Assembly: GCA_019120455.1 (NCBI GenBank) | Contig: DWVB01000003.1 | Location: 1-45,128 of the forward strand | DNA from: Candidatus Avelusimicrobium excrementipullorum | Lineage (GTDB): Bacteria > Elusimicrobiota > Elusimicrobia > Elusimicrobiales > Elusimicrobiaceae | DNA length: 45,128 nucleotides | Direction of reading: 5' to 3' | Part shown: piece after piece, positions 5,884 through 7,027 of the stretch | Position numbering within the stretch: the stretch's first letter is position 1 | Layout of the letters: every line of letters starts with the position of its first letter | Notes under the pieces: model-generated | Seen by the model: only the letters and a program-made list of their open reading frames with translations | Told to the model about the DNA's origin: nothing | Database searches by the model: none | Program-made: the position numbers and the translations under genes

Positions 5884-5910
5884 AAAACCCCCGACTGTGT
5901 CGGGGGTTTT
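5884..5910 (+). terminator. Intrinsic terminator of the hydrogenase gene
   Basis: AAAACCCCCGAC (5884-5895) pairs perfectly with GTCGGGGGTTTT (5899-5910) around a TGT loop, with T-rich 3' side. It starts 2 bases after the stop codon. Confidence 0.92.
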
Positions 5911-5953
5911 CGTAATATGCTTCTTCCTCCGCCTTCCGGCGGACTTTTACAAT

Positions 5954-6012
5954 AAAAAGCCCCCGGGATGAGAGCGCCGGAGGCTTTTTGCCGGACCGTT
6001 AAGAGTCCGGCA
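5954..6012. terminator. Bidirectional terminator-like hairpin plus an adjacent perfect 8-bp hairpin
   Basis: AAAAAGCC at 5954 pairs with GGCTTTTT ending at 5989, around a GC-rich imperfect stem; both strands give a U-tract. Directly beside it TGCCGGAC (5989-5996) pairs with GTCCGGCA (6005-6012). A further TCCGCC/GGCGGA hairpin lies at about 5928-5943. These separate the plus-strand hydrogenase from the minus-strand ncRNA candidates. Confidence 0.65.
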
Positions 6013-6037
6013 GGGGGGATGGGTTAAATCCGTATAC

Positions 6038-6200
6038 AAAAAAGGCAGCGTTTGCTTTAGAAAGCTTTCACCCATTCCAAAACAAAGCTGCCTCTCCATG
6101 TAACGCTTTACACGGAGAAAAACAACTTTGTTTTTAGGTGAAAACTGCTTCCCCTGCGGGAAACTGTCCCCTTGCGGGGCTAAAAACAAAGCGCTAAAAA
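6038..6200 (-). ncRNA. Candidate structured ncRNA, copy 1
   Basis: Read on the minus strand, 5' to 3' in the RNA: P1 CTTTGTTTTTA (6191-6181) pairs perfectly with TAAAAACAAAG (6136-6126) and encloses P2 (CCCC/GGGG, 6168-6179) and P3 (TTCCC/GGGAA, 6149-6162). AGTTTTCACC (6146-6137), between P3 and P1, can pair with GGTGAAAGCT (6072-6063) in the loop of the last hairpin, a pseudoknot. P4 is a 10-bp hairpin TGTAA-AGCG-TTACA with CTCC/GGAG base (6094-6117), abutting P5, AGGCAGC/GCTGCCT (6043-6093), which ends in six U. Copy 2 at 6350-6548 has the same order with compensatory changes. No coding gene follows on this strand, so it looks free-standing. I cannot match it to tmRNA, RNase P, 6S or SRP RNA. 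Confidence 0.7.
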
Positions 6201-6206
6201 ACGGCA

Positions 6207-6212
6207 ATTATA
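6207..6212 (-). promoter_or_regulatory. -10 box for ncRNA copy 1
   Basis: Perfect TATAAT on the minus strand, placing a transcription start near 6200, about 10 nt before helix P1 of the ncRNA. No convincing -35 hexamer is seen. Confidence 0.5.
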
Positions 6213-6349
6213 GGGTACGGCCGAAAACCTCCTTTTATTTTCCCGTACGCGCCGCGGCGGGGATATGGCCGCCGGGCGCGCGGCAAAGGAGCGTAATCTC
6301 TCCTTTACGCTTACGGGGTAATTGTCCAAATACCCCATCCCGAATAAAT
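6213..6349 (-). other. Structured spacer between the two ncRNA candidates
   Basis: No protein-coding signal. Several inverted repeats can be read: GGGGTA/TACCCC (about 6315-6336), AAAGGAG/CTCCTTT (about 6285-6307) which competes with GCGTAA/TTACGC, a GC-rich CGGCGG/CCGCCG hairpin (about 6255-6275) and GTACGG/CCGTAC (about 6214-6248). The mutually exclusive pairings look like a switch or a third degraded RNA copy, but there is no U-tract. Confidence 0.4.
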
Positions 6350-6548
6350 AAAAAAGGCAACGCAACGTTGATGGAGTTATCACGCACCATCAACGGCGTT
6401 GCCTTACTGTGTAATGCTTTACACAGTTAAATAGCTACGCCGTCTTTGGGGTGATAACTTCCGCCTTTTCGGGCGGATGCTCCGCGCGGGGCGCGGACCC
6501 AAAAACAAGCCTATTTAACCTTCTAAATCAAACGAGCTTTTCTGCTCT
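6350..6548 (-). ncRNA. Candidate structured ncRNA, copy 2
   Basis: Same architecture as copy 1. P1 GTTTTTGGG (6506-6498) pairs with CCCAAAGAC (6450-6442). It encloses P2, TCCGCGC-CCC-GCGCGGA (6481-6497), P3, CCGCC/GGCGG (6461-6476), and the strand AGTTATCAC (6459-6451). That strand is exactly complementary to GTGATAACT (6383-6375) in the 12-nt loop of the terminal hairpin. P4 ACTGTGTAA-AGCA-TTACACAGT (6406-6427) abuts P5, a 10-bp plus 9-bp stem (6354-6405) ending in six U. The 5' end is set by a possible promoter at 6555-6584; the conserved core is 6350-6506. The U-tract exists only on the minus strand, which fixes the orientation. Confidence 0.7.
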
Positions 6549-6554
6549 AAAGCC

Positions 6555-6584
6555 ATTATGGCAAAAAGCACACCCAAAAGTAAA
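6555..6584 (-). promoter_or_regulatory. Possible promoter for ncRNA copy 2
   Basis: Minus strand TTTACT (6584-6579), 18 bp, then CATAAT (6560-6555). It overlaps the rpsI terminator. A short GAGC/GCTC hairpin follows at the predicted RNA 5' end. Processing from rpsI read-through is an alternative origin. Confidence 0.4.
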
Positions 6585-6607
6585 CCCCCTTCCGAAGAAG
6601 GGGGTTT
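6582..6607 (-). terminator. Terminator of the rplM-rpsI operon
   Basis: AAACCCCCTT (6582-6591) pairs with AAGGGGGTTT (6598-6607) around a 6-nt loop; on the minus strand it is followed by TTTACTTTT. It lies 25 bases past the rpsI stop. Confidence 0.8.
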
Positions 6608-6631
6608 GTAAAACATGGCCGTACAAAACGC

Positions 6632-7027
6632 TTAACGTTTGGAAAACTGGAAGCGTTTTCTGGCGCCGGGCTGGCCCGGTTTCTTTCTTTCCACCATACG
6701 GGGATCGCGGGTCAGGAAACCGGCTTTTTTGACGGTTTTCTTCAGTTCTTCGCTGATCTCGGCCACGGAGCGGGCAATGGCGTGGCGCAGCGCGCCCGCC
6801 TGGGAGGAAATCCCCCCGCCCTGCACTTTGGCGGTGACGTCATATTCTTTGTCCAGGCTGGTGATCACCAGCGGGGCTTTTACGGTAGCCTGGTATTTTT
6901 CATGACCTTTGAAATAGTCGGCCAAGGCTTTGGCGTTGACGGTAATCACGCCCGTGCCTTTTGCCAGTCTGGCCTGCGCGACGGAAGTTTTGCGGCGGCC
7001 GGTTTTAATTTCTTTGGTATTGTTCAT
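6632..7027 (-). CDS. rpsI: 30S ribosomal protein S9 (uS9)
   Basis: Structural protein of the small subunit whose C-terminal tail reaches the P site. The 131-aa product has the S9 signatures GRRKTSVAQARL near the start, GGGISSQAGALRHAIARS in the middle and the basic tail ending KRFQFSKR. Length and end are normal. It follows rplM by 15 bases on the same strand, the near-universal rplM-rpsI pair, so it is expressed from the rplM promoter. Confidence 0.98.
   Translation of the reverse strand: MNNTKEIKTGRRKTSVAQARLAKGTGVITVNAKALADYFKGHEKYQATVKAPLVITSLDKEYDVTAKVQGGGISSQAGALRHAIARSVAEISEELKKTVKKAGFLTRDPRMVERKKPGQPGARKRFQFSKR

Follow-up and report, generated by a model that had tools for sequence, protein, structure and literature searches.

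In the classical attenuators, the trp and his leaders, RNA strands pair according to a 1:2, 2:3, 3:4 logic. In the expression platforms of riboswitches, P1 competes with an antiterminator, and the platform includes an intrinsic terminator. Here, we describe a family of structured RNAs from Elusimicrobiota that, like the trp and his leaders, has a mutually exclusive terminator and antiterminator ahead of a gene; unlike them, its members are 170–220 nt long, carry several accessory hairpins and a copy-specific helix, can number as many as 53 by model matches in one genome, and include copies without a gene. The competition between P1 and an antiterminator, as well as the intrinsic terminator, are shared with riboswitch platforms, from which the family differs in that its unpaired junction strand is not conserved and its copies are very many. 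The two copies at the locus studied, A and B, recall pseudoknotted bacterial small RNAs in having their own promoter-like sequence, their own terminator, and no gene; unlike those, the family consists mainly of cis leaders, and its loop helix appears to double as an antiterminator. We consider it likely that this is a transcription-attenuator-like, two-state RNA family with copy-specific “codes,” of which A and B are gene-less members. Please note that the type letters A to G and the word “code” are labels coined in this analysis.

The family is apparently undescribed so far. Rfam 15, whose families include tmRNA, RNase P, 6S, SRP, and the known riboswitches, gave no match at gathering score in the window (the whole stretch of 45,128 nt from Candidatus Avelusimicrobium excrementipullorum that was analysed), in agreement with an initial annotation that had recognised no known class. 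A relaxed scan of positions 5900–6700 stayed far below gathering scores, no tRNA or tmRNA was found in the window, and among 16 relatives only two nearby tRNAs were matched. In the literature, where subscription journals were thinly covered, we found no description of such an RNA or pilin leader.

The same annotation had placed two homologous structured RNAs on the minus strand, and both folding and a 13-sequence alignment bear this out: each copy is more stable than 200 of 200 dinucleotide shuffles (z −6.96 for B and −7.13 for A). The architecture that it had proposed is also there, with P1, two inner hairpins, a free strand, a P4 hairpin of the form TGTAA-AGCR-TTACA, and a terminator whose loop pairs back to the free strand (Table 1). 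Its direct abutment of P4 and P5 is true of A; in B the spacing is 0–2 nt and varies with the length assigned to P4. The 1.41-Mb genome has two occurrences of TGTAAAGCRTTACA, one per copy.

Table 1. Parts of copies A and B and their coordinates in the window
Feature	Position	Strand	Basis
Copy B, gene-less RNA, P1(P2, P3, free strand)-P4-P5 terminator	6350..6548	-	folding, alignment, R2
Copy A, gene-less RNA, architecture as in copy B	6038..6205	-	folding, alignment
Promoter-like site of copy B, TTTACT-18-CATAAT, 9/12	6555..6584	-	consensus match only
TATAATTG, -10-like, 5' of copy A	6202..6212	-	by eye; absent from promoter scan list
B strand 1 = P1 5' side	6498..6520	-	
B code strand AGTTATCACC (pseudoknot strand of the initial annotation)	6450..6459	-	alignment
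B strand 2 = P1 3' side, alternative partner for P5 5' arm	6426..6451	-	pairing tests, energies
B P4 hairpin	6408..6425	-	alignment
B P5 terminator hairpin (strands 3 + 4)	6356..6403	-	alignment
B loop strand GTGATAACT, pairs with B code strand	6375..6383	-	alignment
A strand 1 = P1 5' side	6180..6192	-	
A code strand AGTTTTCACC	6137..6146	-	alignment
A strand 2 = P1 3' side, alternative partner for P5 5' arm	6126..6137	-	pairing tests, energies
A P4 hairpin	6093..6118	-	alignment
A P5 terminator hairpin (strands 3 + 4)	6044..6092	-	alignment
A loop strand GGTGAAAGCT, pairs with A code strand	6063..6072	-	alignment

Terminators are present in both copies, and the promoter scan lists a promoter-like site for B only. 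Upstream of the pair, on the same strand, are rplM-rpsI; the other flank is a convergent plus-strand gene with an [FeFe]-hydrogenase large-subunit domain. As had been stated, no coding gene lies 3' of either copy, the sole open reading frame (ORF) near A being antisense to the hydrogenase gene.

Of 41 genomes covered by a DNA search, seven have the element: the window genome and six others of its genus. These seven genomes supply the alignment (seven type B and six type A). The copies recur as a pair, next to the same rpsI gene in several genomes (judged by eye) and elsewhere in others; G009 has lost copy A. Across the 13 sequences, 95.1% of the structure is paired versus 84.8% when shuffled, and the covariation score is 0.373 versus 0.186. 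The loop helix keeps its pairing despite sequence change, just as the first reading had it: each of the 13 sequences has nine canonical loop pairs, six of them invariant and three altered on both sides.

Over the 149 genomes of the order, a first covariance model, R1, returned further A and B types together with low-scoring divergent relatives. The latter keep the architecture and differ in sequence, including that of the loop helix, which is AGTCTTCAAGC plus complement in G098 and GTGCTATCACTA plus complement in G010. In G075, as judged by eye, this helix is 14 bp long and has a single-base bulge. It is important to remember that low R1 scores prove nothing by themselves, because the antisense strands of true members reach up to 35.9 bits and types C and D only 16–29 bits; R1 scores alone were rejected as proof of homology for types C to G. 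We link these types to A and B because a second model, R2, finds copy B, and because the architecture is common to all.

R2 was built from five relatives of type C, which are ∼220 nt long and have an extra hairpin. Although it contains type-C relatives only, it recovers copy B with 43.1 bits (E 4e-10; 7.9e-9 in the whole-genome search), compared with 23.2 bits for the antisense of a true leader in the window genome. Copy A was not recovered by R2 in the whole-genome search, which counts against our reading. Covariance-model searching of Elusimicrobiota found covarying homologues, with R2 matches in at least 80 of 149 genomes of the order (E ≤ 0.1), at least 80 of 235 of the class (E ≤ 0.01), and at least 92 of 340 of the phylum (E ≤ 0.001); these counts, like those of R1, are lower bounds, with stricter filters above 40 genomes and 6–18 candidates scored per genome.

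The 92 positive genomes belong to 7 of 100 genera, including two in the window's family and four (12 genomes) in a distant family that we take to be Endomicrobia. The sister family gave one weak match, and other metagenome-assembled genomes are presumably termite-derived. Scanning the species collection for a motif yielded 49 stretches, every one titled Elusimicrobiota or its members (Elusimicrobium, Elusimicrobiaceae, Elusimicrobiales, Elusimicrobia, and Endomicrobium), with deer, reindeer, sheep, buffalo, yak, and horse as the hosts named. Fuller scoring of ten genomes gave 2 to 53 R2 matches each (49 in G057 and 53 in G101), counts that may include A/B types or antisense matches; the matches listed for these two genomes (46 of 49 and 46 of 53) all score at least 41 bits.

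What lies downstream distinguishes type C from A and B. We used 108 of 111 type-C members (three with <420 nt downstream were dropped) and accepted ORFs of ≥60 aa with a ribosome-binding sequence and a start within 200 nt, calling prepilins by an FTLIEL-type motif. By this rule, an ORF follows 96 of the 108 leaders, at a median of 44 nt, and a prepilin follows 54; on the opposite strand the corresponding figures are 11 of 109 and 0. In type C an intrinsic terminator is found ahead of the gene start; A and B have no such gene, and their types are followed by an ORF in 3 of 26 cases (L026, cut at a contig end, was left out), two of the three antisense to hydrogenase. The initial annotation's view of “trans-acting siblings, not riboswitches” is not supported as a description of the family, whose type-C relatives are gene leaders; for A and B themselves, a trans role is possible.

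A set of 131 members, examined with a slightly different ORF rule, comprised 70 with prepilins, 45 with other ORFs, 12 without an ORF, and 4 that were too short. A signal-peptide-like start, according to a crude pattern, is present in 29 of the 45 nonprepilin ORFs. Ten hand-chosen nonprepilin proteins were scanned with Pfam, which returned three outer-membrane beta-barrels, a glycosyltransferase, a sulfatase-domain protein, a type I restriction N-terminal-like domain, a YrbL-like protein, DUF805, a zinc-ribbon-like match slightly below cut-off, and one protein without a match.

The RNA is not general to prepilins, because the window genome has 41 prepilin motifs and two type-C leaders that we could find, neither ahead of a prepilin. 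A descriptor search upstream of its prepilins gave one weak, chance-like match over 38 motif rows (overlapping loci, with some genes counted twice and 7 rows having <160 nt upstream). Among the matches listed for G057 and G101 (46 + 46 RNAs, with 59 of 114 and 91 of 108 prepilins), a prepilin lies ≤450 nt downstream of 25 of 46 and 22 of 46 RNAs, respectively, and none lies upstream. As a separate observation, 114, 108, and 41 prepilin-type motifs in the ∼1.4–1.5 Mb genomes G057, G101, and G000 represent unusually many pilin-like genes.

The code strand is situated directly 5' of the P1 3' strand, and its loop partner directly, or a few bases, 3' of the terminator 5' arm. Since P1-3' can also pair with the terminator 5' arm, this pairing and the “pseudoknot” together would make a single long nested helix, and the loop helix would therefore extend an antiterminator that excludes P1 and the terminator. 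Within type C, a leader's own P1-3':P5-5' pairing averages −11.90 kcal/mol versus −11.76 when permuted, with 0 of 500 permutations as good (52 of 500 for control strands); the energy gain is small, a point against our reading. Across seven types, with strands picked by hand, the values are −14.01 versus −9.23 kcal/mol, with 8 of 5040 as good. When compared with shuffles, 8 of 9 hand-picked cases were better (0 to 7 of 500 as good), whereas G010 was no better (121 of 500), which is likewise unfavourable. The alternative helix of five sequences alone showed zero two-sided changes.

The two folds are similar in energy. When the code is left free, the forced long helix minus P1 and terminator comes to a mean of +2.3 kcal/mol (sd 4.6; 108 leaders), and the terminator state is more stable in 79 of 108. 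In the nascent RNA, up to the end of the loop strand, the code helix is part of the MFE structure of 106 of 108 leaders. In full-length leaders, a crude count finds at least eight terminator pairs in the nested MFE structure of 107 of 111, and the long helix is present in 4; this preference, like the 79 of 108 above, speaks against our reading. For copy A the MFE structure is the long helix (free strand and P1-3' with P5-5' and loop) and not P1 plus terminator, which the initial annotation had missed; copy B favours the terminator state by 3.1 kcal/mol. In silico, type C has an antiterminator and a terminator that exclude each other, and in these models the P1-3', code, P5-5', and loop strands pair by the same logic as in transcription attenuators.

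The pseudoknot that had been proposed survives in that its helix covaries; an antiterminator of which this helix is one part is the better reading, although a pseudoknot could still form in the terminated state. The RNAs might instead be rigid pseudoknotted small RNAs acting in trans, their loop helix being a true pseudoknot recognised by a protein or target. The covarying loop helix is compatible with P1 and P5 in one molecule, A and B are gene-less, and in most leaders no other state would be as stable as the terminated one once the code duplex is added (mean −12.3 kcal/mol before loop cost). We nevertheless regard this as unlikely, given that the family is mostly gene leaders and that P1-3'/P5-5' complementarity would have no role in a pure pseudoknot scaffold.

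In the attenuator that we favour, strand 2 (the P1 3' side) would pair with strand 1, and strands 3 and 4 would then form the intrinsic terminator P5. Alternatively, strand 2 and the code would pair with strand 3 and the loop strand in a long antiterminator helix, with P1 and the terminator gone. Most members are 5' leaders, in which the choice of fold would set the read-through of RNA polymerase into the nearby gene, mostly for a prepilin or other exported protein, and the code helix (∼10 bp, near-pure Watson-Crick, and copy-specific) would let each leader pair with itself. Switching in the cell, together with its direction and signal, is what we infer from these modelled folds. If the leaders do work in this way, they would be a major layer of surface control in gut Elusimicrobiota. 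Two genomes of ∼1.5 Mb have the 49 and 53 model matches, and the class stands ahead of prepilins and outer-membrane proteins of gut bacteria.

Copies A and B, with promoter-like and terminator sequences of their own, would have kept this machinery and lack the gene; their most likely fate would be release as small RNAs, which might compete for a leader-reading factor. They have strands, both folds, and terminator in common with the leaders. We think that they stand alone and either derive from the leaders or gave rise to them, and that any trans action would be through the common scaffold; a titrating role is our guess. The A/B code shows little variation between species, in contrast to the leaders' codes, and the codes of the window genome's two type-C leaders differ from those of A and B (the pairing score favoured Watson-Crick pairs).

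The code is hypervariable and yet self-complementary. With equal weights and a fixed register, 87 of 100 members (from 111) have at least 9 of 10 canonical pairs; pairing one member's code with another's loop gave 141 of 2000, some members having common codes. The G-U share of the code helix is 2.7% in the fixed register versus 5.6–15.6% in other helices. A recount on 131 members, which misplaces L137, found at least 9 of 10 pairs in 115 (control 428 of 2980), 17 G-U in 1131 code pairs, and 87 distinct codes among the 115; within genomes, 0 of 213 code pairs are identical and 5 are alike at eight or more positions. A count with another anchor, on the wrong strand for at least L137 and L139, had 121 of 131 members paired and 0 of 234 within-genome pairs identical.

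Among the 87 members with at least 9 of 10 pairs, code identity between copies is 0.34–0.36 versus 0.36 expected from column composition, and that of P3, P3.5, and P4 is 0.64–0.74. Helices P1 and P5 are conserved; the junction (code) strand is random between copies. This last point bears on whether P1-P2-P3 could be an aptamer whose ligand stabilises P1 and hence the terminator. A riboswitch of this kind would fit the junction-like 5' domain, the competition between P1 and antiterminator, and a terminator close to the gene. We judge it quite improbable, however, with a junction-closing strand that is random between copies, little sequence common to divergent types, and downstream genes for structural surface proteins that define no single pathway.

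Between orthologues (>60% identical downstream proteins) the code is common to 13 of 15 pairs. Both exceptions come down to a single leader, L170 (G049), compared with L123 and L166: the downstream protein is identical, the RNA elsewhere is 97–98% identical, and the code differs on both arms. Codes of close within-genome paralogues are mostly unrelated: those of L104/L150 and L159/L183 are 4/10 alike, with 90–92% identity elsewhere, but in L113/L175 the codes are 8/10 alike.

Near-pure Watson-Crick pairing and a code once replaced on both arms could also be expected of a DNA-level element, invertible or mobile, with the code as recombination core and the RNA-like fold secondary. Invertible pilin promoters, such as the fim switch, are known. 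We think this highly improbable: 131 of 131 type-C members match R2 end to end in one orientation (which the search itself favours), the other helices covary with G-U, there are T runs and a position ahead of genes, and a pattern scan for the P5 motif in viral contigs found none, which argues against a mobile element.

Returning to the attenuator, we offer tentatively, and with more doubt than belief, that the code might be a per-gene address, a random, self-complementary, near-pure Watson-Crick sequence whose two arms are both replaced at leader duplication; the dozens of homologous switches in a cell would then be exclusively self-acting or each reached by a cognate RNA, and A/B-like copies trans-acting or titrating. 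If so, this would be a barcoded RNA-switch system over a large, variable repertoire of pilins and surface proteins. A hypervariable self-complementary helix is also a natural experiment on the joint change of both arms of an RNA helix, and makes it testable whether paralogous RNA switches need mutual insulation. Codes that cross-pair are not evidently avoided within genomes (24 of 468 within versus 900 of 19226 between).

Copying of the code from its flanks showed no excess in most tests. Code matches of ≥8 nt on the same strand downstream numbered 8 of 105 over 600 nt, against 2.1 expected, and 5 of 106 over 120 nt, against 0.5 expected; upstream, the reverse complement matched in 2 of 108 over 100 nt, against 0.4 expected. 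This signal is weak. Template switching reportedly creates and maintains RNA hairpins (PMC8794818) and can alter both helix arms in one step; here, the code arms are >100 nt apart and the sequence is different in each copy. Template switching would not account for the source of a new code sequence.

Several smaller observations are worth recording. Many type-C leaders, such as L104 and L110, have a conserved hairpin (AAGCCTTAAACGCGGCTT-like) and a ACGGTTGTTAATG motif on their 5' side, and the RNA start is therefore probably farther upstream than modelled; -10-like promoter sequences of type-C leaders were identified by eye only. L110, L112, and L113 are the same leader plus zinc-ribbon-like gene in two genera (g1 and g14), with proteins 94–99% identical, which suggests transfer with the leader attached. 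The stretch 0–90 nt after type-C leaders pairs with P1-5', 22 of 98 beating all 20 shuffles (4.7 expected), and this could possibly be a further control layer; other leader strands did not stand out against the pre-start-codon stretch (P5-3' 5, P5-5' 4, P1' 5, and J 2).

In the window itself, an extra hairpin and terminator lie 3' of copy A at 5959–6011 on the minus strand, with a conserved loop, ACTCTCATCC. A hairpin of this type, with the ACTCTCATCC loop, also follows A (or B) in several relatives, and CTCATCCCGGGGG from this element occurs once in the genome at zero mismatches; it is possibly a third small RNA. Between B and A, at 6248–6308 on the minus strand, is a strong GC-rich hairpin, and relatives have similar ones in the same place.
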